A stretch of 64,000 nt of DNA from positions 103,620,221-103,684,220 of the forward strand of contig OZ024931.1 of the NCBI GenBank assembly GCA_964017235.1. The letters run 5' to 3'. Below the pieces are notes generated by a model, which was given only the letters and a program-made list of their open reading frames with translations, was not told the DNA's origin and made no database searches. The translations under genes were made by a program, and so were the position numbers. How positions within the stretch are numbered: position 1 is the first letter of the stretch; the number at the start of each line of letters is the position of its first letter. Shown piece by piece: positions 905 to 21,701 of the stretch. Origin of the DNA: Sabellastarte sp. h YS-2021 (taxonomy: Eukaryota; Annelida; Polychaeta; Sabellida; Sabellidae).

Positions 905-1083
905 GGTGTTTTGATGTTCACTGTCCCACCTCCAAGAACAAAGTGACCGATTTATGGTCAAGAAATTGGTTCAAAGTCTCTTGACCAATGAAATGACCTT
1001 TGACAAAGTGACCATAGTAAAAATAAATATTTAAGGTACACCCCAAAGGAATGAGCCCGGTGGCACCCCAATGCCACCCAGCA
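905..1083 (-). repeat. element 1 direct repeat, 3' copy (A2)
   Basis: This 179-bp stretch is identical to 6568-6746. Its inner end (high coordinates, the 5' side in element sense) carries the hairpin GGTGGCA-loop-TGCCACC at 1059-1078. It is followed by a GGGA-rich tract at its outer edge. Confidence 0.9.
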
Positions 1084-1598
1084 CATTCCCCAGGGGAGGA
1101 AGGACAACAGCATTAGATGCAAGGCCAAATGGGATTATATATTTTATTAAAATAGTAATATATGAAATATATACAGTTACTAATTGATAATACTAACTGA
1201 TTTTTAGCTATTAGGAGAACATATACATATTATAGGGTATTATGAGGAATTTGATTTTAAACAGTATACAAAGGTGTTTGGGCAGATGCCTCACCCATGA
1301 TATAATATACTAATTTTTTAATAATTTGAATAATTTTTTATCCCGAAAATGACAACTGTTTACTACCAGATAGAACCCCACCCCGAAAGAGTGAATGTCC
1401 CATGTAACCAGGAAACACCATAAAGGTGAGGCAAATGCAATTTTAGAATTATGAAATAATTTATAACATTTATAAAGGTCAAAGGGCAAGGTCAGGACCA
1501 GTATATATGTACAAACAGAGGAGGAACTATATGAGATTTTTACAGAGATATTTACTGGTCAATGTGAAAGAAATGGAAAAAGCCACCAAACAGCCAAA
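1084..1598 (-). other. 3' untranslated part of element 1
   Basis: About 515 bp lie between the YR stop codon and the A2 repeat. The segment is AT-rich with no recognisable coding frame. It should contain the B1 repeat if the element is a true Ngaro, but I see no second copy of it left of 905. Confidence 0.4.
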
Positions 1599-2572
1599 CT
1601 AGGAATGTAGTGCTGTACGAAAAGAGTTGGCAACAGGGGAAGTGGCTGAAGGGACAGTTTTAATGTATTTCCAAATGGCCTGAGAGGACCATGTGCCATG
1701 GGCCATTATATCTTGCAAACTGACCCCATGCTGGAAGGCCCACGTAGTGCCACCTTTACGAAACATATGAAAAGTTAAATGTGGAAACTTTAGTGAAGAA
1801 GCCAAAGCTTTAAGGTGTTTTCTAGCCACAGAATCTGTTAAAGTGACAATTTTTCCTTTTTGATAAATGGAAAACAAAGGGGCATTATTGTTCCCTGGGA
1901 CAACTTTAAGCATGGTTTTCAGAAGTGTACAGGGACATAATGGTGAGTCACCTAGATCCAGGACAACTATGGTTCGAACCTCACGTCTATCTTGCAAGGT
2001 CTTTGACCATTTTAAGAGGACAGTAGCACCGGTATCGGAGAAGAAAATATCTCCTCTGCACAATTGTCTTGTAATATCAAATGCTGCCACAGTATGGGGA
2101 AGCAAATTCGACATTCGAAGAAAACTAAAAAATGCAAATGAGTACAAAGCTTTGAAAACTAGAGGGTTTTGGAAAAGTTCACATGCTATCAAGATGGATG
2201 TAAGCATATGTTCTGTAATAATGGTGGGAATATTGGGGGTAAATGGCTTATTCAACCTAATAGCTTTCATGAATAATTGTAATTTTTCATGCCTCAAAGG
2301 TCTAGTAGGTAATGAATAGGTGATGAACATAGCCCTGATAGCAGCTATGTAGTTTGCAATATTATCAGGACTAAGACCATTTTCAACAAGGTATTCAAGA
2401 AACGCAAGTATTATAGAAACATTCACCTGGTTATGTGACAGTCCAGCTGCCACCAGGAAAGCCAGGAAATCTCTAAACATTCTGGTATAGTTCTTTTGAG
2501 TTGCTGGTTTATATGAATTTCTCAGACGCTCCCAAGCCCTGGTAGCCAGCTGGACTGTGGGTGAGGGGAAAT
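1599..2572 (-). CDS. tyrosine recombinase (YR) of element 1
   Basis: This integrates circular or linear DNA copies of the retrotransposon, replacing the DDE integrase of LTR elements. Visible are the first catalytic Arg in FLRMSNL, the HxxR box in HMFRKG, a His in HGTWSS and the nucleophile Tyr in WKYI near the C terminus. The first ATG (2480) falls inside the N-terminal SAM-like domain. The frame stays open upstream to about 2572 and there encodes residues similar to the start of element 2's YR (LATRAWERLR, then KPATQKNYTRMF). The upstream limit coincides with a splice-acceptor-like TTTCAG, so the protein is probably made from a spliced transcript. No internal stop. Confidence 0.85.
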
Positions 2573-2578
2573 CTGAAA
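2573..2578 (-). promoter_or_regulatory. putative 3' splice site at the RT/YR junction of element 1
   Basis: On the minus strand TTTCAG sits directly after the RT stop codon TAA (2579-2581). The YR codon spanning the AG is GAT, with the exon taking AT. Element 2 has the same AG at the same codon and phase (20075-20076). The donor was not identified. Confidence 0.5.
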
Positions 2579-5032
2579 TTATATGTTTTCGTTAAATAAC
2601 ATTAAGTCAATATGTGGATACAACCAAAGATGGTTTGGTAAATAAAAATTTAATTTACGATAATTCTCAGCCGAATTTCTCCATCTTGAAAGTAAGTCAG
2701 CCACAGTGTTTTTAGTACCTGCAATATGTGAAACAATAATTTGTATGTTATATATAGCAGTAAGGAGCCAGACGTTTCGAGCACAGGTGGCCATGACTTC
2801 ATCCCTGGCTCGACCTGTATTGAGAACTTCAACCACAGCTTGGTTGTCACATTTTTTTTTATTGGCCCAAGCTTGGCCCCAAATTTTAAGGGCCACCATA
2901 ACATTGATCATTTCTAAATGATTAATATGGTATTGTTTGTAGTCTCTAGGTATTGGGATTGCATACACAAATTGTTGAAAAACCCCACCTAAACCTGTAA
3001 GACAAGCATCTAGGAAAATAGATTCATCTACAGGACGACTATCATAATATGTAACTCCATTGTAACTATTTAAAAATGTGTTAAACCAATTAAGGTCTTT
3101 GAAGAATGAAGCAGACAAGGGAATTCTTTGATTTTGAAAATATAACCTAAATAAAGCCAACATTCTGTTCAAAAAGAAACGAGCAGGTTTAACACATTTT
3201 GTGATATACAAGAGAGATCCTAATAAGGATTGGAATTGATTTTTTGTAGCATATTTTTTGAAAACCCAGTTATTACATAATGTTTTGATTTCCAGGAGTT
3301 TTTCAGCAGGAATTGAAATGGTCCTGGCTTTAGTATCTATCCGAATGCCTAAGCAAATGGCCGAGGTAGTTGGGGCTACCAGCTTTTCTGGACTTATAGC
3401 TAGTCCAATATCCTGGAGCAATTTGAGTAGAAAGTGATAAGAATTATATATATTGGAGGGAAGGCCAGTATATATAAGGTCATCTATGTAGTTCCAGAGA
3501 CCAGGGAAACCATGTTGACGCATGATATGACGTATGGCGTCGCTACACCTTGTAAAAAAAATTGAACCGTGTCTAAATCCGAACGGAAGCGATAAGTCAG
3601 TATATAAGCCATTATGAGATAAACCAAGCAAATCAATATCCCCAGGGTCGACCCTTATGTGTCTGAAGGCCCTACGAATGTCAACTTTGTAGAGCATTGC
3701 ACCTGGACCCAAGGAATTAAGGGCATTTGTGATATTATCTATAGAAGGATATTGAAGTTGAAAATAAGTATTCAGATATATATGCTTGGAAACTCCATGA
3801 TTGACAGAAAGGTTAGGAGGCCAACTAAGGTCCATTATGGTTCTTCTTTTAGTTGAATTTTGTTTGGATGTGGTCATTAGAGGGGAAACATGAGTGGGGA
3901 TTGGATACTGAGGGAAAGGTCCCAGCATTGCACCAAATTGCAATTCTTCATCAATGTACTTTTGAATGTCTAAAGGAAAGTCTAAGGCAGACTTATGGTT
4001 TTCTAATGTGTCTTGTAACGGAGAATTTCTGTCAAAATCTAGAGGAAAACCAAAAGAAATCAAATCTGGTAGTTGTTGATCCCAATAATTTCTAAGATGG
4101 TGTTTCCATCTATGTGCCTTAAGTTGACCTTGAATAGGTATTCTACAACCTAAGAAGTTTGGCTTACCACTTTGTCTGATCATAGTATGAGCTTGAAATA
4201 TATCTGGGATTTCTTCATACTTCTTTTCCATCCCTATATATAATTCAAGTGGAGTCAAAGGAACAAATCCTATATGACTTGCAGTTTGTTGTATACATTT
4301 GTTATAATCTGTGCAAGCATATTTATTTTCTAAAATTTCCTGTGGAATGGAATGAGTATGAATATCAAGTGTATTGTCATAGTTTTGATACACATCTGAT
4401 AAACCCATAATAGGTTTTTGAAATTGTTGGATACAGCCATTATGGTGAGCATAACTGTTTGAGGTAGAATATATTGGAATTGTGGCAAGATGCTGGCCAT
4501 TGTCAGTTGCTGGTGAATTATCCACTGTAATTTGTGGTGCCTGGGAAGTAACGTTTATGGCCAGTTCACTACTAGGCGGAGTGTAATTTGTTACATCCAT
4601 GTGTATTTTTTGTTGGTTTTTTAATTTTTTCTTTTTATTGACAGAACCAGTAGCCTTGGTTTCCTTGCTAGCATCACTCTGATTTGTGTCTAATGAAATA
4701 TCATTGTGACCTGCATTAACCCTATCAACTTGGTCAACATTGTGATAACTTTGGTCTTCTCCAGCTTCAGTACCTGGTATTGTTTCCAAAATGGCAAACC
4801 TATTCTTGATGTAAGTAGAATCAGTTGTTTTCGTTTGGAGAGGTTGAGGGGAAGTGAAGAATTTTTTAGGTAGGTTATGACCTTGAATTTTGTTGTAAGT
4901 CATAACACCCGTTTTACTAGATACGACTTTTAGACGAGTTTGCTTGGGAGAAGGAAAGGAATGCACTCCAACGCCATTATGAGATATTTGAGTATCAAGG
5001 AAACTTGATCTTGTAGTGGTTGTTTGACAACC
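2579..5032 (-). CDS. reverse transcriptase-RNase H of element 1
   Basis: Polymerase that copies the element RNA and removes the RNA template. The open frame runs 5032-2579. Its first codons have no good ATG, and the frame overlaps ORF2, lying -1 relative to it. A Ser/Thr/Asn-rich N-terminal third is followed by RT motifs: VDIRRAFRHIRVDPGD, LPFGFRHGS and the active site YIDDLIY, then CLGIRID. RNase H follows with LDACLTGLGG, HLEMINVMVAL, KCDNQAVVEVL and a final GTKNTVADLLSRW. The D-E-D-D set appears complete. The order and the PFGFRHGS variant match DIRS-order elements, not Gypsy or Copia. No stop interrupts about 800 codons. Confidence 0.88.
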   Translation of the reverse strand, partial: GCQTTTTRSSFLDTQISHNGVGVHSFPSPKQTRLKVVSSKTGVMTYNKIQGHNLPKKFFTSPQPLQTKTTDSTYIKNRFAILETIPGTEAGEDQSYHNVDQVDRVNAGHNDISLDTNQSDASKETKATGSVNKKKKLKNQQKIHMDVTNYTPPSSELAINVTSQAPQITVDNSPATDNGQHLATIPIYSTSNSYAHHNGCIQQFQKPIMGLSDVYQNYDNTLDIHTHSIPQEILENKYACTDYNKCIQQTASHIGFVPLTPLELYIGMEKKYEEIPDIFQAHTMIRQSGKPNFLGCRIPIQGQLKAHRWKHHLRNYWDQQLPDLISFGFPLDFDRNSPLQDTLENHKSALDFPLDIQKYIDEELQFGAMLGPFPQYPIPTHVSPLMTTSKQNSTKRRTIMDLSWPPNLSVNHGVSKHIYLNTYFQLQYPSIDNITNALNSLGPGAMLYKVDIRRAFRHIRVDPGDIDLLGLSHNGLYTDLSLPFGFRHGSIFFTRCSDAIRHIMRQHGFPGLWNYIDDLIYTGLPSNIYNSYHFLLKLLQDIGLAISPEKLVAPTTSAICLGIRIDTKARTISIPAEKLLEIKTLCNNWVFKKYATKNQFQSLLGSLLYITKCVKPARFFLNRMLALFRLYFQNQRIPLSASFFKDLNWFNTFLNSYNGVTYYDSRPVDESIFLDACLTGLGGVFQQFVYAIPIPRDYKQYHINHLEMINVMVALKIWGQAWANKKKCDNQAVVEVLNTGRARDEVMATCARNVWLLTAIYNIQIIVSHIAGTKNTVADLLSRWRNSAENYRKLNFYLPNHLWLYPHIDLMLFNENI

Positions 5033-5199
5033 TCAGCAAACGTACGACCATCGCGTTTGTTTTGAAACGCTTTAAATGTGTGCCACCATCTTGACCACTG
5101 ATTTTTATGAACTGCATATTCTAGTTTACCTTGTTTTGACCAAACATATCTATCACAATGGATGTGGAATTGACCAGTGTCCACATCCAAGCCTATTCG
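4930..5199 (-). CDS. small ORF2 of element 1, reached by -1 frameshift from gag
   Basis: About 90 codons lie in the -1 frame relative to gag, from the slippery site to a TAA at 4930. The frame extends upstream inside gag as a shadow to 5283, but only the part after the gag stop is conserved in element 2. Shared features are Arg-Tyr-Val (DRYVW against TRYIV), a Trp-rich stretch (NQWSRWW against EQWLKWF) and a motif RTFAEVVK against RSYADIVK. The last resembles the Y/F-A-D/E-V-V motif seen in ORF1 proteins of some retroelements. No ATG is available at the gag stop here (ATAG instead of ATGA), so frameshifting is the likelier route. Function unknown. Confidence 0.6.
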   Translation of the reverse strand, partial: RIGLDVDTGQFHIHCDRYVWSKQGKLEYAVHKNQWSRWWHTFKAFQNKRDGRTFAEVVKQPLQDQVSLILKYLIMALECIPFLLPSKLV

Positions 5200-5205
5200 T
5201 TTTTT
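5159..5205 (-). promoter_or_regulatory. -1 programmed frameshift signal at the gag end, element 1
   Basis: In the gag frame the heptamer A AAA AAC occupies 5205-5199, one sense codon (GAA) before the TAG stop. A 9-nt spacer (5198-5190) leads into a 10-bp perfect stem: TGGATGTGGA at 5189-5180 pairs with TCCACATCCA at 5168-5159 around an 11-nt loop. The slip enters the ORF2 frame exactly. Element 2 has the same arrangement with a different stem. Confidence 0.8.
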
Positions 5206-6410
5206 GAATTTTTTAATTTGTTCCTGCAATCTAGATCTGAATGAGCAAAAGATTTGCCCAGTTTTTCGAAGCATGTAGAACAAACGTGTCGGTACAACAC
5301 ACCTTTTGTTTCATGTGTTTTCGGAAAACTGCAAGTATTTTGGTTGAAAAACTGACATGGCATGGTTTTGCTATATTTCTGTGCAGCTCTGGTTCCATTA
5401 TTTTGAGTTTTACTTTGATTTTGTGGCATATGTCTTTGAGCATTTGCTCTTCTTATTCTATCAATTTTTTCCGATTCCGATAAATCCCTAATCTCACCCT
5501 GCTCCATTCTGCATAACAGCACGGCGTGACCGGCCTTTGCCGCACCCCAGGAAAAATCCTGAGCATCTTCCAATAAAGCGACCATATAGTCTAACATATG
5601 TTCTTTTAATTTTGAATTTTTTTCTTCTTTGATGGTGCGGCAAAAGCCAGTCACCCATTGTAAAACCGTGAGCTGATCATAGGATATTCTTTCTTTGTTT
5701 GAACCTGACAGAACATGCTCGTGAGGCCAACGAACGCGATTTTTTACAAATATATCAACACCACCTCTTTGTGACTTGATTTTTGTATCAGTACCTGTAG
5801 CATTTAGACGAGTAAGTTCTTCCAATCTTTGTTGGACTTGCTCTTGTATGGTGGCGTTCTGTCTAAGCTCAACCAAGTTTGGTAAGGTAGGAGTCGTAAC
5901 TGGGTGAGGCACAGAGCTTACAGAAGCTAATTTGGAAGAAGACTTTTTGTTGGGACTACTTGTTTTTGTTTTCTTGTTGCTTTTTATCAGTTCCGGATTC
6001 GAAGTTTTCTTACATCCGGTATTTTCCAATTTATCCAGCCTTTTTCCTAGCTGATCAAGTTTGCTTAAAATTTGTTGATTAACAAGCATTTGAACATTGC
6101 CGCCATCACTGCCAGATGAACTGGCCTGTTGACTGCTTCTTTCTATGCTGTTGTCCTCATCCGACATTTTATTTGAATTGCTATCCGAAGTGTCTGACAT
6201 ATCCACCAAAGCAGAACAATCTAATTCGCTAAGACTAGAAATATCTGACTCCGAATTGACTGTATCAACAGTTTGTTTAGTATTCAGCAAGGTATTCAAG
6301 AATTCTACATCAGTACACGTTTGAATTTCAACGGGTATTGTTACACTTTCATGTTTACCAGAACGCAAGTTATACTGCCTGTTATTCTCCATAAGATACA
6401 CATGAATCAA
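5193..6410 (-). CDS. gag-like protein of element 1 (405 aa)
   Basis: Putative nucleocapsid protein. It starts at an ATG and opens with YNLRSGKHESV, followed by an acidic Ser/Asp-rich region, a short heptad-like segment (LDQLGKRLDKLEN), a basic Lys/Ser stretch and a conserved globular region (RVRWPHEHVLSG, SYDQLTVLQWVTGF, DAQDFSW, AGHAVLL). The C terminus holds a Cys/His cluster (PCQFFNQNTC, H in THETKG, HVCSTC, then H and C) that could bind zinc. Element 2's gag aligns along the whole length with the same Cys/His spacing. It ends at the frameshift heptamer. No homologous host gene is recognised. Confidence 0.8.
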   Translation of the reverse strand: MIHVYLMENNRQYNLRSGKHESVTIPVEIQTCTDVEFLNTLLNTKQTVDTVNSESDISSLSELDCSALVDMSDTSDSNSNKMSDEDNSIERSSQQASSSGSDGGNVQMLVNQQILSKLDQLGKRLDKLENTGCKKTSNPELIKSNKKTKTSSPNKKSSSKLASVSSVPHPVTTPTLPNLVELRQNATIQEQVQQRLEELTRLNATGTDTKIKSQRGGVDIFVKNRVRWPHEHVLSGSNKERISYDQLTVLQWVTGFCRTIKEEKNSKLKEHMLDYMVALLEDAQDFSWGAAKAGHAVLLCRMEQGEIRDLSESEKIDRIRRANAQRHMPQNQSKTQNNGTRAAQKYSKTMPCQFFNQNTCSFPKTHETKGVLYRHVCSTCFEKLGKSFAHSDLDCRNKLKNSKNE

Positions 6411-6567
6411 GAAAACTAAAACAATACCTAAACTATAATGTTACATTAAAAAGTTACTAAAATACTAAAATACTGTAAACGTAAATATTCATATAAATTT
6501 TAAAGATACAAAGCCCAACACGTGGTTGCACCCAGACAGCTTGAGTAATGTTGATCTGTTGAAGTCT

Positions 6568-6746
6568 GGTGTTTTGATGTTCACTGTCCCACCTCCAAGA
6601 ACAAAGTGACCGATTTATGGTCAAGAAATTGGTTCAAAGTCTCTTGACCAATGAAATGACCTTTGACAAAGTGACCATAGTAAAAATAAATATTTAAGGT
6701 ACACCCCAAAGGAATGAGCCCGGTGGCACCCCAATGCCACCCAGCA
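6568..6746 (-). repeat. element 1 direct repeat, 5' copy (A1)
   Basis: Identical to 905-1083 over 179 bp. In element sense it begins TGCTGGGTGGCA and includes the tip hairpin. The gag ATG lies about 340 bp from its outer edge. The promoter probably lies in or just after it, but no TATA box is evident. Confidence 0.9.
6722..6741 (-). other. terminal hairpin of element 1
   Basis: In element sense GGTGGCA (7 nt), loop TTGGGG, then TGCCACC form a perfect 7-bp stem, followed by GGGCTCATT. The second copy lies at 1059-1078. Element 2 carries the equivalent at 15802-15823 with a base-pair swap and one extra pair. Confidence 0.8.
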
Positions 6747-9700
6747 AATTCTTATTGACTGGCCACAAAGTCAGCAAATGCAGCCTGGATAGTATGATAT
6801 TACGAATGCAGAAACATTGGCGATAACAATCAGATATTCAGATGAATGAAATTCTGTTTTTATTTATTTTTTAAAGTTAACCAAAGACTGTTGCATATCT
6901 AATCACAGATTGATGATATCATTGAAAAATAATTTAGACTATTTCCTTAAGACTTTGCAAACACAACATTTTAAACATATCAAAGAAGTGGAATTTATTT
7001 GACTTAATTATCCCCTTTCTTGATAAAGATTTCTTTTCAAACTATTTTGTATCCCTTTTCAAATAAGGAACTACCCCTGGTTTTATTTCACATACTCATT
7101 AGAGAAAAGGTTTTCCCAGAAAAGACAAAACTATTGATAACCAAGACATGTCAAAGAAAAGAGAGAAAAAGTATTAATTTACTTAATTGGCATTTAACAA
7201 TTATTCTTTCCGATATTTTATAGTTTAAGAGACAAAGAAACAGTTGACACATGTCATTTCTTTAGAAGGTTCAGGTGGTTTGTTAGATCTCATGATATGT
7301 TTGGATCTGTGTGACTGGGTTCACTGGGGTCTCACCACAAGTTGGCAGTTTGTTGGTTGATTCTTCAGAAAGTCTTTAAACATATCAATAAGTATGTGGT
7401 GAGAGATTCCCCCCTGGTCATATTGAGCACACATCGAATAATTGCCTAAACAAATATTGATACAAAAACGTCTCTTCAGAGAGAGAGGGGAGGGCAATAA
7501 ACAGGCCCAGGTGGCCTTATTAAAAATATCACTTTCTTCACTAAATCTGTGTAAACAGGAGTTTCTTCTGTCATAAACATGGGAACAGACTAGCCAGAAT
7601 TGATTTAAAATCTTAAGTGCAACCTTAACTAGAAATATACTTATGTGTTGTTTCATTCTCGACAGTTGCATCATTTATAGCTCTGCGTCAGGTAGTAGCT
7701 GAATGAAGTACACTGATACCGGAATTTCGGCAAGTACACCGTATGAATAGTATATAAATCATCCTGTACTTATTGAATGCATGATGCAATAACTTACCGG
7801 AAGCTTTTACTGACACTTTTCTTGTTGTACTACCGCATTCGAAAATCACCAACTCTAAATGAAGTCTTCAACTACCAACTTTAAAGTCCGCATTCGTGTG
7901 AATTGTTCATCTGATTAGGTTGAGTTTATGATACAACAAAAGGGGAATAAACATCTGTGTCAGATAAGGCAGATCTAGCATTGAAAACACAGGTTTGCCA
8001 CATGGAAAGTGTCAACAAAGGTCCTTGTCGAGTGGGGGTATTCGAGTAAACTGACCCCAGTGTTGGCTGTGTTCGTGGTGTACAGAGTGCTAGGGGATTA
8101 AAATGACTTCACCCCAGGCCACGGGTGTATGCAACCAGTGTTAATCAGTGGAGAAAGGGCCATTTGTTTGCACTTCTGTTGTGTTAGTGTATTTCAATAA
8201 AAAACCGTTCTCATTCCATAGGATTGAGAGTGAAATAACCTTAAGTTAAAACTCTTTTTTCCTAATTATGGTGATCATTCTGGGAATACCATTTGATATG
8301 GTGGATGTTAATCAGTTGCTACACCTGTGGTCTTGCATTCTATGAACTATATACTAGTTCAGTACGAGAGGGTCACAAAGAAGTCCTCCTCACATCCTTG
8401 GTACATTAAGGTCTCCAGTTATAGCTTAACTCCAGCCAGTACCCAGGTCTGTCTGTGTGTGGGTCCCGCAGGTCAGCCGAGTGACACTGAGACCCTCCTT
8501 CTTCCTTTCACACTCTCTTCTTATGGTTAAACCATTCAACTCTGTGTAATTAACCTTGTCTGAATCACTTGAACAGTTTGAACAAGTAATAATTGATCCC
8601 CGAAGCTCTCACTTCCCAGGGACCTCTGTTTAAGCACTCTTTGTCTTTCACCTGTGTTCTGTTATTGGATGACCGGGGATGGTCCTTCGTGTGTGTTTGC
8701 TGGGCTTATTAACATCCCACTGAGATCCATTCTCTCTAATAAACCGCATTGTCCAGGTGCCTATAGTAAAAACACACCACCACCTCAGGGCAAGAACAGA
8801 AAAGATTAATAAAGGAAATCTAACTATTAAAGGAAGGTAGCAAATCTCCATGTTACACAGCAACACAATAAACCCCCTTGCAAAGATCTCCCTGGTATGC
8901 CTTCTGGGATACAAAAAATACAGCTGTAATTCTATTTTAAGCCCATCTAAGACACATTTACTCTTCTTTTGTTTACAGTTAAATTTATATTCAACCTATT
9001 TGACCAATCACTGAAGAACTCTGGCTTAGCATCAGTCTTGCTTATGTTTTTTGAAAGATAGTTTCACTGGTTCTAGTAGTTCAAATGACAATCACCTCTA
9101 CCCTCTCTGTTCATTTTATTGAGTGACCAAAGACCTTGTACAATGAAGTTCATCCACTGTTACCTAGTAGCAAAATATTGAACTTTGGTATACAAAACTT
9201 TGGTATACAAATACAGGATTATTATTTTAAAAGGAAAAGGAGGGAAAAAATGAACTCAAACACACACAAACTCCCTACTTCAGGCAATATTTAATGATCT
9301 TTCTCATTCTCTAAGATTACCAACCTTACAAATATCTAAAGTTTTAACTCTCAGTGAATAATGTGACCTTATAGATCAGCAGACAAACACATCATGTCAG
9401 TTTAGTGATCACATATGGATGGCAATATGTATTCCATTTAGGTGGCCATAGATTTGTATTTCAAGTTTTGCAATAGCTGCATAATTGTAAATTTCTAAGC
9501 ATGATCAAGGAATTCAGTGGTTAATCCACTTTATAAGGACAGCACACACCAATACAGTTTACCTGCTCATTTAGATGCCACATCATGCTCATTCATTCCA
9601 CAATTCCTTTATGCTGAAATGATGTATTAAAATAATCTAATTAATCTAAAAATACCAACAGTTTACAAGAACTGCCAGTCTCATTAGTTAGGCAAATATA

Positions 9701-15801: not shown

Positions 15802-15823
15802 GGATGCCATTCGGGTGGCATCC
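15802..15823 (+). other. terminal hairpin of element 2
   Basis: GGATGCCA, loop TTCGGG and TGGCATCC form a perfect 8-bp stem, followed by GGCTCATT. Compared with element 1, one G-C pair is swapped to C-G and one A-T pair is added, both preserving pairing. Confidence 0.8.
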
Positions 15824-16191
15824 GGCTCATTTTGGCTTCCCTTCTTCTTGTTGTTTAGTGTCCTCATTTCATTTGCATATTCAATTGCTATTGGTCAAGA
15901 CTGACCAGCGTGGGACCTCTCTGTTTCTGCAGGTACATTCTGCCATTCTGTCATTGAAAAGCAACGAGGACACACAAGAATTCATACTGAGTTATATGTG
16001 CAATATTATTAACACTACACGTGTTGGGTTACTGTATGGTTTTCTTTTTATGTTTATATATTTGGTATTTTAGTCTTTTACAACTAACATTATTTTATTC
16101 AATCTCGCCTTGTTGCCTTGTATATTATTGTTCTAGGGACGGACTTGTAAACTGATACAGTGAATATTAGTATTTTAGTATTCTAGTCGTT

Positions 16192-17364
16192 ATGTACAAT
16201 TTGAGATCCAATAAAAAAGAAACGGTTCAATTTCCAGTGCAAATACCAGTAGATGATGAACAATTTTTAAACGAATTATTGGGTCATAAATCTTCTTCTT
16301 TCAACGACAGTACAAACATGTCGGATTCTTTTCAAGAAAGTTCAGACAGTGAACTTGACTGTGATGCCTTGCTTGATAGTCCTGATATTGAAATACATAC
16401 TAGCTCAGACAAAACTAGTAAGCAATCATCTTCACATCATGCTCAGCAGACGAATTTGGCTGACATTACTTCTGATTTCAAAGTCCAATCCGTTATCAAC
16501 TCCCAAATTTTGGACCAACTTCAAAAAATTGGCAAAAGATTGGATAAAATTGAAAATGGGACTTGTAAAAAGATTGCGGATAAGACGAAGATCAAGGGCA
16601 AATCTAGTTCTAAATCAAAAGAAAAAGTTGCACCTAAACTCCAGCAGCATATAGAGGTATTCGAACAAAAACTTCCTACTTTTGATTCACTCAAGGAAGA
16701 TGCTCTTATCCAGTCGAAAGTCGAGCAAAGATTGCAAGAGCTTACCGACCTAGCAAAAACAGGTACGACCCAAAAAATTAAGTCCCAGAGAGGCGGTTCT
16801 GTCGAGGTCACTGTAAAAAACAGAGTTAAGTGGCCACACGAATATGTCCTATCCGGATTAAACAAAGAACGCATTTCATACGACCAGTTGTCGGTTACAC
16901 AGTGGGTGGCTGGCTTTGGTCGAACCATGAGAGATGAAACAAACCCTGAACTTAGAGAACATATGCTTGAATATTTAATTTCACTCATGGATGACGCGAA
17001 TGACTTCTCTTGGATTTCGGCCAAAGCCAGCCATGCAGTGTTACTGTGTTGTATGGAACAAGGAGAAGTAAAATCATATTCTGACACTTTGGCTATTGAC
17101 AGAATTAGAAGAGCAAATGCACAAAAGCATGTTACAAATTCCCCTCAAACTTTGTCCAACGCGAAGAAATATGGCAAGACAACTAAATCTATGCCTTGCA
17201 CATATTTCAATCAAGGTACTTGTGTCCAGAAGAAATCCCATGAGACCAGGGGCGTTTTATATAAGCACATTTGTGCTTCCTGTTTTGCTTCTTTTGGCAA
17301 AACTTTTCCCCACTCGGAAACAGACTGCAAGAATAAACATAAAACGCAGTCAAAAAACGAATGA
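16192..17364 (+). CDS. gag-like protein of element 2 (390 aa)
   Basis: Putative nucleocapsid protein, homologous to element 1's gag over its whole length. It starts MYNLRSNKKETV, then has an acidic Ser-rich segment with SELDCDALLD, a heptad-like helix (LDQLQKIGKRLDKIEN), a Lys-rich segment and the conserved core (NRVKWPHEYVLSG, SYDQLSVTQWVAGF, DANDFSW, ASHAVLL). At the end it has a Cys/His cluster (MPCTYFNQGTC, H in SHETRG, HICASC, then H and C), a possible zinc site. The last codons TCA AAA AAC GAA TGA contain the -1 slippery heptamer and overlap an ATG (ATGA) of ORF2. Confidence 0.82.
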   Translation: MYNLRSNKKETVQFPVQIPVDDEQFLNELLGHKSSSFNDSTNMSDSFQESSDSELDCDALLDSPDIEIHTSSDKTSKQSSSHHAQQTNLADITSDFKVQSVINSQILDQLQKIGKRLDKIENGTCKKIADKTKIKGKSSSKSKEKVAPKLQQHIEVFEQKLPTFDSLKEDALIQSKVEQRLQELTDLAKTGTTQKIKSQRGGSVEVTVKNRVKWPHEYVLSGLNKERISYDQLSVTQWVAGFGRTMRDETNPELREHMLEYLISLMDDANDFSWISAKASHAVLLCCMEQGEVKSYSDTLAIDRIRRANAQKHVTNSPQTLSNAKKYGKTTKSMPCTYFNQGTCVQKKSHETRGVLYKHICASCFASFGKTFPHSETDCKNKHKTQSKNE

Positions 17365-17395
17365 GTCTGGGTGAACACAAACAGGTGCTCACCCA
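17352..17395 (+). promoter_or_regulatory. -1 programmed frameshift signal at the gag end, element 2
   Basis: A AAA AAC lies at 17352-17358 in the gag frame, followed by a 9-nt spacer (17359-17367). The stem pairs TGGGTGA (17368-17374) with TCACCCA (17389-17395), then after one mismatch CAC with GTG, around the loop AAACAG. The -1 frame is exactly that of ORF2. The overlapping ATGA could also permit termination-reinitiation, but element 1 lacks that ATG. Confidence 0.8.
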
Positions 17396-17906
17396 TAAAA
17401 CTAGATACATTGTAAACACAACATTGAATGTTCAAAAAATTCACAAAGAAACTTCTGTCAAGCCGGAACAGTGGTTAAAATGGTTTAAAACCAACAATTC
17501 TGTGAATACTTTTGTTGATAATAGGTCATATGCTGATATAGTGAAAACTGTTCACTCTTGTGTCAACTCAAAACTGATTAAGCTCGATATATTGCAAAGA
17601 CAAAGTACTCCTGTAAATGTAATGCAAGGAAACAAATACAATGCGCTCAACCAAAATGCGTTCGCAGCGAACGCACTCGGACCAAATCAGCCAGTCTTGC
17701 TATACAGTCTCAGGTCAAACGCAATACTTTCCCTAAAGGCAAACAGTCCAATAAAGAAGGTAATATTCAACTGGCCAATAAGTTTACTATTTTGCAATCA
17801 TTATCGGATGATGCAAATGATGATTCATCAGATGGCTCACATTTTACTAACTCATTGGAAGGCAATAAAAACAAAACGGGGCAAACATTGGGTTTGGAGC
17901 CAATGA
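17361..17906 (+). CDS. small ORF2 of element 2
   Basis: 181 codons in the -1 frame relative to gag, beginning at the ATG overlapping the gag stop or entered by frameshift. The first about 75 residues correspond to element 1's ORF2 (TRYIV, EQWLKWFK, RSYADIVK). The later part is not conserved and overlaps the RT frame, which lies a further -1 away. So only the N-terminal half is likely real coding sequence. No function is recognised; the SYAD-I/V-V motif occurs in ORF1-type proteins of other retroelements. Confidence 0.55.
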   Translation: MSLGEHKQVLTHKTRYIVNTTLNVQKIHKETSVKPEQWLKWFKTNNSVNTFVDNRSYADIVKTVHSCVNSKLIKLDILQRQSTPVNVMQGNKYNALNQNAFAANALGPNQPVLLYSLRSNAILSLKANSPIKKVIFNWPISLLFCNHYRMMQMMIHQMAHILLTHWKAIKTKRGKHWVWSQ

Positions 17907-20056
17907 ATACTGTTGATGGTGTGGTGCATATTACTAAACCTTTTAAAGGCAACAAAAACAAAAAGGGGCAAACATTGGGTTCACACTCACCACTACAAGC
18001 GAGTAGTAACAAAATTCACCAGGACAAGCAAAATTTTAAAATTTTCAAGGGCAATAACAACGGAAATAGGGCAAAATTGGGTGAAAAGCTTGTAAATTCA
18101 TCTGTCCAGTCATGCAGAGCTGAAGCATCTGTACTTCCGGTTGTTGAAACAAATGGACAAACAAGGAATGAACCTTTGTTGGGTTGTCATGATTTAGCAT
18201 GCACCCAAAACCCAGAGGACCAATTAATAACAATTTATGATGTTATGAAACCCCCTCAATATAAGAAGAGACATATACCACAAACAGTTATAGATAATAA
18301 AATCTTTTCTAAAGATTATGTCAAATGTGTACAACAAAATGGTTCTCATTATGGTTTCTTACCTCTGAATGACCTTATGGTGTATCAAAATGAAGAGGTC
18401 CATTGGACAGAAATCCCTTCTATTATAGAAGCACATAAAATGGTGAAAAAATCAAAAATGCCGAATTTTATGAAAGCTAGGATTCCGGTACAAAGTCAGT
18501 TGAATATTGCTTCATGGTATAAATATTTAGGTGACTATTGGGACCAACAACTGGTAGATCTTCTACATTATGGCTTCCCTCTAGATTTTGATCGTTTACA
18601 AAGCTTACAGTCCACATTTACTAACCATGCTTCTGCATTGCAGTTTTCTGATCATGTGGACAAATATATCCAAACCGAAATCGATTACGGAGCTATGATA
18701 GGTCCTTTTAAAAAATTGCCTTTTTATTGTCATATCTCCCCTTTTTTAACTCGAGAGAAACAAAATTCGGTTAACAGAAGAGTCATAGTTGACTTAAGTT
18801 TTCCGGTAGGCCAATCTGTGAATGATGGGGTGCCTCATGATAGATACTTAGGCACATATTTTGAACTAAATTATCCATCGGTTGACACAATTGTCAATAA
18901 CCTTAAGTCCTTGGGCCCTCAAGCTTTAATATATAAAGTAGATATCTCCAGAGCGTTTAGGCATATTCACATTGACCCTGGGGATCTGGATCTCCTAGGA
19001 CTTCAACACAAACACCTATTTATCGATTGTACGTTGCCGTTCGGATTTCGTCATGGTTCCGTAATTTTTCAGCGTTGTACGGACACCGTACGTCGCATCA
19101 TGTGCAAAAAATTTAAATTCCCTCACTTGTACAACTATATTGATGATATGATCTATACTGGCTTGTCAGATGAGATACAGGATTCCTATGACACTCTCAT
19201 CAATTTATTGCATGAATTAGGGTTGGAAATTAGTGAATCCAAGCTTGTCATCCCCACAAGTCGTGCTGTTTGCCTAGGAATTGAAATAGATACGGTCAAT
19301 AGAACATTAAAAATACCCGATGATAAATTACAAGAAATTATGAATATTTGCAAAAGTTTTGAATCGAAAACGAAAGTGACAAAAAATCAATTACAGTCTT
19401 TGCTTGGTTCCCTTCTTTACATAACCAAATGTGTGAAACCAGCCAGATATTTCCTCAATAGAATGTTGCAATTGCTTAGAGATCATAATAAATTATCTAA
19501 GATTCACTTAAATGATAACTTTCATAGAGATCTAAACTGGTTTAATGTCTTCTTGCCTCAATATAATGGCGTTACTTTCTATGACCATCAAAAGCCACAG
19601 CACACAGTACACTTAGATGCTTGCTTAACAGGCTTTGGTGGTCAGTTTGCAAATAATGTTTACACCCTAACCATCCCCTTTGGATATAACAATTACACCA
19701 TAGTTCACTTGGAAATTCTCAGTATTGTTGTAGCCCTTAAACTTTGGGGTCGTGAGTGGACAGACAAGGTCATAGAGATTAAATGCGATAACATGGCAGT
19801 GGTGGAAGTATTGAGGTCAGGCAGAGCAAGAGATCCCACGCTGGCTACTTGTGCCAGGAATGTGTGGCTTCTGACTTCCTTGTTTAACATAAATCTCATT
19901 GTCAATCATATCTCTGGAGTTAAAAACCAGGTTGCAGACATGCTATCTAGATGGCAGAATACTATGTTACAGTTACAACGACTGTCCCAACTAGTTCCTC
20001 ATTATGAATGGGTTCAAACCCACTTAGATCACACAAAACTAAATGATAATATTTAA
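17582..20056 (+). CDS. reverse transcriptase-RNase H of element 2
   Basis: Replication enzyme of the element. The frame opens at 17582 without an ATG; a TTG at 17792 is no natural start. The first conserved residues (NKFTIL, like NRFAIL in element 1) precede it, so translation must arrive from ORF2 or by another route. RT motifs: VDISRAFRHIHIDPGD, LPFGFRHGS, the active site YIDDMIY and CLGIEID. RNase H motifs: LDACLTGFGG, HLEILSIVVALKLW, KCDNMAVVEVL and GVKNQVADMLSRW. The N-terminal region contains three similar stretches ending GNKNKxGQTLG, GNKNKKGQTLG and GNNNGNRAKLG. No stop interrupts the frame. Confidence 0.88.
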   Translation, partial: ARYIAKTKYSCKCNARKQIQCAQPKCVRSERTRTKSASLAIQSQVKRNTFPKGKQSNKEGNIQLANKFTILQSLSDDANDDSSDGSHFTNSLEGNKNKTGQTLGLEPMNTVDGVVHITKPFKGNKNKKGQTLGSHSPLQASSNKIHQDKQNFKIFKGNNNGNRAKLGEKLVNSSVQSCRAEASVLPVVETNGQTRNEPLLGCHDLACTQNPEDQLITIYDVMKPPQYKKRHIPQTVIDNKIFSKDYVKCVQQNGSHYGFLPLNDLMVYQNEEVHWTEIPSIIEAHKMVKKSKMPNFMKARIPVQSQLNIASWYKYLGDYWDQQLVDLLHYGFPLDFDRLQSLQSTFTNHASALQFSDHVDKYIQTEIDYGAMIGPFKKLPFYCHISPFLTREKQNSVNRRVIVDLSFPVGQSVNDGVPHDRYLGTYFELNYPSVDTIVNNLKSLGPQALIYKVDISRAFRHIHIDPGDLDLLGLQHKHLFIDCTLPFGFRHGSVIFQRCTDTVRRIMCKKFKFPHLYNYIDDMIYTGLSDEIQDSYDTLINLLHELGLEISESKLVIPTSRAVCLGIEIDTVNRTLKIPDDKLQEIMNICKSFESKTKVTKNQLQSLLGSLLYITKCVKPARYFLNRMLQLLRDHNKLSKIHLNDNFHRDLNWFNVFLPQYNGVTFYDHQKPQHTVHLDACLTGFGGQFANNVYTLTIPFGYNNYTIVHLEILSIVVALKLWGREWTDKVIEIKCDNMAVVEVLRSGRARDPTLATCARNVWLLTSLFNINLIVNHISGVKNQVADMLSRWQNTMLQLQRLSQLVPHYEWVQTHLDHTKLNDNI
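17866..18086 (+). repeat. short coding repeat inside the RT N-terminal region
   Basis: Three units code for similar peptides around GNKNK-(T/K)-GQTLG at about 17866, 17950 and 18050. The linker is therefore partly built from a small internal duplication that element 1 lacks. Confidence 0.6.
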
Positions 20057-20074
20057 AATGTACTTTCTATTTAC

Positions 20075-20076
20075 AG
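20075..20076 (+). promoter_or_regulatory. putative 3' splice site before YR, element 2
   Basis: TACTTTCTATTTACAG ends at 20076, just after the RT stop (20054-20056). The codon across the junction is GAT, as in element 1, with AT on the exon side. A pyrimidine-rich tract precedes it. Confidence 0.5.
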
Positions 20077-21053
20077 ATGACATGCCACACACTTCCAGGT
20101 TTGCACCTTTAGCCATCCTCAGACTTAGGCAGGGTTTTCGGCCAGCTACCTGGGCTCAGTACCACAGAATGTTCTCTCAGTTCATAGCTTTCCTTGAAAC
20201 AGAAAGCCTCACACTCCTACAGGTGAACACTGTTATCTTGCTGTCATTTATGGAGTTTTGTTTCCATAGTGGTTTATCACAAGCCAACATTTCCAACCAC
20301 ATGTCAGCCATTAGGGCAATGTTCATAGTTCATGGTCTGGATACAGAACCTTTTAAAGACCACAGATTGTCTTTGTACATAAAATCTCTTAAAATTAATG
20401 CAAAGTTCACTCCTACATTGACAAAGATTATATCCATAGAAACCCTTCATAATATTGTGCAAGCTTGCCAGGCCCTGCCAGATCCTGTAGTATTCAAAGC
20501 ACTGTACTTGTTTTGCTTCTTTTCTTTCATGAGGTTGTCTAATATTCTTCCACATTCTTCCACACAATTTGACATCACAAGACATTTGGCTAGAGGTGAT
20601 CTGGTATTCAGTCAAAAAATTTGTACCATTTTAATTAAATGGTCCAAAACAATGCAAACTCGTAAAGAAACTACAACTATAAATATTCCTGTATTGGGCG
20701 CATCTCAGCTCTGCCCAGTGGCTGCATTGAAAAATATGTTCACCTCCATCCCTGCTTCAAATAATTCGCCATTGTTTGTACTCTACAGGCACGGGGTTTT
20801 AACTCCACTTCCAGATTCAACAGCTAGGAAACATCTGAAGTCTGTATCCTCTTCCCTTAATATTTCTCCACATCTAACATTTCATAGTTTTAGAAGGTCT
20901 GCCACGACCTGGGCTTTTCACAATGGGGTTTCCTTGCAAGAGATCATGAAGCATGGCACCTGGTCATCGAACGCAGTTTGGAAATACATTAAGTCTGTGC
21001 CCTCTTCTTCTTCACAGGTCTCACGTACATTCCAACATCACCTCTCCCTCTAG
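20077..21053 (+). CDS. tyrosine recombinase (YR) of element 2
   Basis: Integrase of the element. The frame is open from 20043, but the sequence similar to element 1 begins right after the acceptor-like AG at 20076 (SRFAPLAILRLRQGF, RPATWAQYHRMF). Catalytic residues: Arg in FMRLSNIL, HxxR in HSFRRSATTWAF, His in KHGTWSS and Tyr in WKYIK. The length of about 325 residues is close to that of other YR-element recombinases. RT-to-YR is a +1 relation here but -1 in element 1, so a conserved frameshift cannot serve both. Confidence 0.85.
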
Positions 21054-21501: not shown

Positions 21502-21701
21502 NNNNNNNNNNNNNNNNNNNNNNNNNNNNNNNNNNNNNNNNNNNNNNNNNNNNNNNNNNNNNNNNNNNNNNNNNNNNNNNNNNNNNNNNNNNNNNNNNNN
21601 NNNNNNNNNNNNNNNNNNNNNNNNNNNNNNNNNNNNNNNNNNNNNNNNNNNNNNNNNNNNNNNNNNNNNNNNNNNNNNNNNNNNNNNNNNNNNNNNNNNN
21701 N
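21502..21701. other. assembly gap of 200 N
   Basis: Exactly 200 N, a conventional placeholder of unknown true length. Both edges carry GGTGGTTACTCCCAT, which suggests an unresolved repeat or a short contig overlap. The missing A2 repeat of element 2 probably lies here. Confidence 0.95.

Follow-up and report, generated by a model that had tools for sequence, protein, structure and literature searches.

Where gag meets pol, a clade of tyrosine recombinase (YR) retrotransposons carries a cassette that is very probably a programmed -1 ribosomal frameshift signal, and the comparison of related sequences strongly backs a ribosome-slip signal at the end of the first gene. The cassette consists of a slippery heptamer in the phase of gag, a spacer of fixed length and a covarying stem, and it is followed by an open -1 pol frame; each of these features is established. 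We infer from them that ribosomes would slip at the heptamer, as well as the frequency of slippage and its stimulation by the stem.

The cassette was found in two elements within a 64,000-nt stretch of DNA (the window), both of which have the gene order gag, RT/RNase H (RH), YR on one strand, as judged from their ORFs and from Pfam matches. In element 1, on the reverse strand, gag runs from the first ATG of its frame to its stop (5193..6392) and is followed by an N-terminal piece of pol in the -1 frame (4930..5205), an RT/RNase H piece in a frame that differs from that of the N-terminal piece (2579..5032) and a YR ORF (1599..2591). Element 2, on the forward strand, has the same layout: gag, delimited in the same way (16192..17364), the N-terminal piece of pol in the -1 frame (17352..17906), the RT/RNase H piece in a different frame (17582..20056) and the YR ORF (20043..21053). 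A Pfam scan of these eight ORFs identified RT/RNase H and YR domains in both elements, and gave no match to a protease, DDE integrase or methyltransferase. The gag proteins of the two elements are 49% identical, the RT proteins 55% and the YR proteins about 51%, and the -1 frame pieces just past the heptamer share 26% identity (E about 2e-4). Element 1 is bounded by terminal direct repeats of 184 nt (5' copy at 6568..6751 and 3' copy at 905..1088, both on the reverse strand), and the 99.5% identity of the two copies suggests that its insertion was recent. Element 2 has a gap 3' of its YR gene, where a run of 200 N (21502-21701) has the same 15 bases (GGTGGTTACTCCCAT) on either side. This run may conceal the 3' repeat of element 2.

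The 3' end of gag reads tcA AAA AAC GAA TAG in element 1 and tcA AAA AAC GAA TGA in element 2. The heptamer A AAA AAC lies in the phase of gag (5199..5205, reverse strand, in element 1; 17352..17358, forward strand, in element 2), and is separated from a hairpin by a 9-nt spacer that contains GAA and the gag stop (TAG in element 1, 5190..5198, reverse strand; TGA in element 2, 17359..17367, forward strand). The hairpin of element 1 has a perfect 10-bp stem and an 11-nt loop (5159..5189, reverse strand), and that of element 2 has 7 bp, one mismatch and 3 bp (17368..17395, forward strand). The original prediction had placed the heptamer one codon before the gag stop and a hairpin exactly 9 nt past the heptamer in both elements; its coordinates proved exact to the base and its account of the two stems was verified in the sequence. 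It had also held that the stems are alike in position and strength, and they are, with the same 9-nt distance and a local minimum free energy of the downstream fold of about -15 kcal/mol in element 1 and -14.8 kcal/mol in element 2. Each gag contains four in-phase XXXYYYZ heptamers, with the strong 3' fold located at the junction; in element 1, another of the four, A AAA AAT, lies 9 nt 5' of A AAA AAC and faces the same fold. When the -1 frame was recoded synonymously, an equally stable fold was obtained with p = 0.002 in each of the two elements.

The next open frame after gag is the -1 frame in elements 1 and 2 alike. This part of the earlier claim that the -1 frame is ORF2 stands, but the ORF2 of that claim is merely the N-terminus of pol. 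The extent of the frame was determined in 31 loci (L001-L030, of which L001 is element 1, and element 2), and it was free of stops from the heptamer through the end of RT/RH in 17 of them, over 863-878 codons; the heptamer therefore marks the gag-pol boundary. The scripted junction pattern overlooked L009, L010 and L023. In elements 1 and 2 the signal is present and pol is split farther downstream, which is why RT/RNase H is found in a third frame in both copies. In two relatives that are 85-86% identical to element 1 (L002 and L003), N-terminal pol and RT/RNase H occupy a single frame, and in the copy behind L031, which is 96% identical to element 2 in RT, pol is open for 907 codons. As the relatives have one frame, the two-frame pol of elements 1 and 2 is explained by a broken pol. 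A second canonical heptamer bridging the pol pieces was also sought, and none was in phase in element 1 or element 2.

Relatives of the elements were sought in the whole genome (1.786 Gb in 647 contigs). The searches returned at least 56, at least 55 and at least 74 relatives in overlapping lists, and the best candidates were scored. In all, 91 loci were surveyed (L001-L063, element 2 (W2), L071-L077 and L078-L097), and the gag-pol junction was located in 88 of them: 61 of 64 by a filter, L010 and L016 in addition, six of the seven in L071-L077 and 19 of the 20 in L078-L097. The junction was absent from the stretches examined at L061, L072 and L085. AAAAAAC is kept at 84 of the 88 junctions, a count in which copies inside one lineage are near-identical and hence not independent; the other four have AAAAAAT (L024, L046 and L073) or AAAGAAC (L047). 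Gag is in the phase of the heptamer at 85 of the 88 junctions. The exceptions, L010, L016 and L086, all have the heptamer, and in L016 gag and pol are read as one frame. The gag stop codon varies among loci between TAG, TGA and TAA, and has been lost in L023. Mismatches occur in the stems of L003, L005, L024, L033, L035, L074 and L077; the stem of L075 is rearranged, and a deletion runs through that of L054. Viral contigs, scanned twice with protein and once with a DNA pattern, and prokaryote contigs, scanned once with protein, yielded no relative; the sole DNA-pattern match in the viral contigs, L070, had no significant similarity to the elements.

The conservation that had been proposed as a check of the signal was thus found in the same genome: the heptamer and the -1 pol frame are present in every sampled lineage, and the 9-nt spacer with a stem of variable sequence is present in all sampled lineages but one clade. 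Copies of the kind that the original prediction had named as evidence against itself, with an intact reading frame and an altered heptamer or stem, do occur within limits. One clade combines an open pol and the heptamer with the lack of a strong stem, and single copies with an open pol have an altered heptamer (L046 and L047, open for 909 and 916 codons, respectively) or one stem mismatch each (L003 and L033). L046, L047 and L073, which resemble L037, L040 and L041, have AAAAAAT or AAAGAAC and mostly retain the stem. The altered heptamer of this subgroup could be the product of decay or a weaker slip site.

The geometry of the stem was compared in 17 of the first 64 loci, selected as representatives for their distinct junction sequences and RT groups. 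In 16 of the 17, an uninterrupted helix of 7 bp or more (with G-U pairs allowed) begins exactly 9 nt past the heptamer; resampled sequence gives a chance expectation of 3% for each. L036 reaches its 7 bp in a different register; in the register common to the set, its stem has 6 bp, a mismatch and 3 bp. Six of the 16 could also form a helix of 6 bp or more that starts one base nearer the heptamer and lengthens the stem outward. The gag stop of L009 lies one codon farther 3' and its 9-nt spacer is unaltered; as the distance holds with a shifted stop, the stem is tied to the heptamer and not to the stop. L010, a relative of L009, has the same layout with gag out of phase.

Pairing in the stem is maintained while its sequence changes. 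In a MAFFT alignment (A4), 93.4% of the cells of the 8-bp stem pair, versus 29-50% when the partner strand is slid by 1-3 columns. Two-sided changes are seen in five of the eight stem pairs, a count reached by nine of 500 shuffles, and the covariation score of the stem was reached by none of 500; both figures are uncorrected for relatedness, and the representatives share ancestry. RNAalifold, run unaided on A4, predicted seven of the eight stem pairs. Folds were more stable than those of synonymous recodings at p<0.05 in 15 of the 17 representatives, the other two being L027 (0.062) and L058 (0.44). As the representatives are related, a p-value combined over all of them is not to be read at face value. 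Since other codons for these pol residues rarely fold as well, the stem does not simply follow from the protein; the pol residues that it encodes vary between lineages. A search for a pseudoknot between the loop and downstream sequence gave p below 0.05 in two of the 17 (L011 and L012) and no consistent helix.

The clade without a strong hairpin comprises L058, L059, L063, L078-L084 and L086-L097; it has kept AAAAAAC, and its pol is mostly open. Both the L058 group (L058, L059, L063 and L095-L097) and its relatives (L078-L084 and L086-L094) have AAAAAAC followed by one sense codon and then a stop. Among the 19 clade loci with a junction in the L078-L097 set, 16 derive from stop-free RT matches. 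The fold test with a 40-nt window gave p<0.05 in two of 19 clade loci (L084 and L088), L097 reached 0.04 solely in the longest window (106 nt), and no convincing longer-range structure was found in the clade. In an RT tree of 16 rows, the three rows without a hairpin form one clade (support 100/99), which is nested within hairpin-bearing lineages under midpoint rooting, and a single loss or replacement explains the missing hairpin of this L058/L078/L080 clade. These elements would either slip less or have a different stimulator that escaped detection.

Programmed -1 frameshifting that makes Gag-Pol is, on the sequence evidence, by far the best explanation for the cassette. Most ribosomes would terminate one or two codons past A AAA AAC and thereby yield Gag, and a minority would be paused by the stem 9 nt 3' of the heptamer. 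Paused ribosomes would slip by -1, the tRNAs in their P and A sites would pair anew as AAA AAA, and translation would proceed into pol to produce a Gag-Pol fusion. Such a mechanism would cover the heptamer, its phase, the spacer, the stem, the position of the stop and the missing start codon of pol.

It is very unlikely that pol is instead made by termination and reinitiation, with the hairpin retaining ribosomes that then restart at an ATG near the gag stop. A stop/start overlap (ATGA) is present in element 2 and L012, and the first 18 codons of the -1 frame contain an ATG in nine of the 17 representatives; the other eight, element 1 included, have none. Reinitiation also leaves unexplained the conserved AAAAAAC and the constant distance between heptamer and stem despite the moved stop of L009. 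The missing early ATG in eight representatives and the unexplained heptamer make it a poor fit.

Fainter still is the prospect that gag and pol are joined on the RNA and not by the ribosome, through splicing or through slippage of RNA polymerase on the A6 run. Acceptor-like motifs are present elsewhere in the element, 5' of YR, and an A6 run could in principle slip during transcription, but a stem at a fixed distance with compensatory changes is unexpected under either process. It is just as improbable that the hairpin has a different function, for example in RNA packaging, and that the heptamer owes its conservation to the KKR/KNE residues it specifies. In the -1 frame, the heptamer plus GA does read as KKR in each of the 17 representatives, and one clade has retained the heptamer after the loss of the stem. 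However, the codons for K and N are free at their third positions, yet the exact heptamer is present at 84 of the 88 junctions, and the position of the stem is locked to it at 9 nt in 16 of the 17 representatives. Readthrough of the gag stop is ruled out because pol is not in the frame of gag and TAA, TAG and TGA all occur.

A motif resembling a 3' splice site lies directly 3' of the pol stop in element 1 (TTTCAG, 2573..2578, reverse strand), and another lies 3' of the pol stop in element 2 (TTTACAG, 20070..20076, forward strand). A T-rich stretch ending in AG (TTTCAG, TTGCAG, TTTTAG, TTTACAG or similar) was found directly 3' of the pol stop at all 11 loci inspected, namely elements 1 and 2, L002, L003, L006, L009, L011, L012, L018, L021 and L027. 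The YR frame has no ATG 5' of its conserved block in element 1, L002, L003, L006 and L026/L027, which suggests that YR would be made from a spliced RNA, for which the sequence offers a candidate acceptor only, with no donor identified. An earlier ATG is present in the YR frame of element 2, L009, L011, L012, L018 and L021.

Several features of the element ends were also observed. A short inverted repeat, found by eye, is located near the 5' end of three elements (6722-6741, reverse strand; 15802-15823, forward strand; L068:597-616). Its arms differ between the elements and pair in each (GGTGGCA/TGCCACC, GGATGCC/GGCATCC and GGTTGCA/TGCAACC), and are followed by a common GGCTCATT; the repeat may serve as the site of YR recombination. 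A leader motif, TATTTTAGTATTYTAR, also found by eye, lies just 5' of gag in three divergent elements (6457-6472, reverse strand; 16171-16186, forward strand; L068:861-876). The copy behind L012 is located in an array of repeats of about 682 nt each, with an overlap of about 4 nt between its flanks at the ends of the element (L066:973-976 and L067:703-706). In L012 the first bases of the element were not found again on the 3' side; L013 has such a copy.

Retroviruses and many LTR elements produce Gag-Pol by -1 frameshifting as a matter of course, and the ratio of Gag to Gag-Pol that it sets is a hallmark of both. The present elements share with retroviruses and LTR retrotransposons an X XXY YYZ heptamer in the phase of gag, a downstream RNA structure and a pol frame at -1. 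They differ in that they encode a tyrosine recombinase and that none of the eight ORFs scanned matched a protease or DDE integrase, which speaks against their assignment to LTR retrotransposons or retroviruses. They differ also in the minimal overlap of gag and pol, since one or two codons separate the heptamer from the gag stop. According to the consulted part of PMC5009743, A_AAA_AAC is among the most shift-prone heptamers for mammalian ribosomes, and a survey cited there covered 51 animal LTR retroelements and placed pol in the -1 frame of gag in 28; that part makes no mention of DIRS, Ngaro or tyrosine recombinase.

The elements are like Ngaro in their gene order on one strand, in that none of the eight ORFs matched a methyltransferase, and in the terminal direct repeats of element 1. 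The repeats of Ngaro are split direct repeats with the layout A1 ... B1 A2 B2. Repeats like A1/A2 were found in element 1 (184 nt) and L013 (192 nt; L068:587-778 = L069:717-908) and were not found in L012, and a B repeat was not found in element 1. The elements are provisionally filed as Ngaro from gene order and the missing methyltransferase match, with B repeats not found. DIRS1-like elements have gag, YR and then RT-RH-methyltransferase, between inverted terminal repeats (PMC3266345, in part). The present elements are like them in being YR retroelements with RT/RH; element 1 differs in its order of gag, RT/RH and YR, in having no methyltransferase match and in its direct terminal repeats. 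A DIRS1-like assignment was rejected on the gene order.

The consulted parts of PMC3783388, PMC8547959, PMC3266345 and PMC2632668 describe the gag, RT/RH and YR ORFs of Ngaro and no frameshift signal; ORF overlaps are given as not usual in Ngaro and VIPER (PMC3266345), and a frameshift is mentioned for the YR ORF only (PMC3783388). No report of a frameshift signal in DIRS/Ngaro-type elements was found in the literature searched, which was covered in part and to which the founding 2004 Ngaro paper (Goodwin and Poulter) does not belong. The type of signal is already known, and within that literature no earlier report of its occurrence in this group of elements was found.

A broader, tentative proposal, with slightly less than an even chance of being correct, is that these elements follow a retrovirus-like plan. 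Gag would be made by termination, Gag-Pol by -1 frameshifting and YR from a spliced RNA with its acceptor directly past the pol stop, in the place that env occupies in retroviruses. The signal would be ancestral to the clade, with the hairpin swapped for another stimulator in one sub-clade.

A covarying signal of this kind in elements that encode a tyrosine recombinase would mean either that this form of control predates their split from retroviruses and LTR elements, or that it arose twice. Frameshifting by -1 would account for the expression of a pol that has no start codon of its own, and would explain why pol may appear shortened in annotation. The elements also provide a natural series of stems at one constant spacing, including one stemless clade, in which the requirements for a stimulator could be tested.
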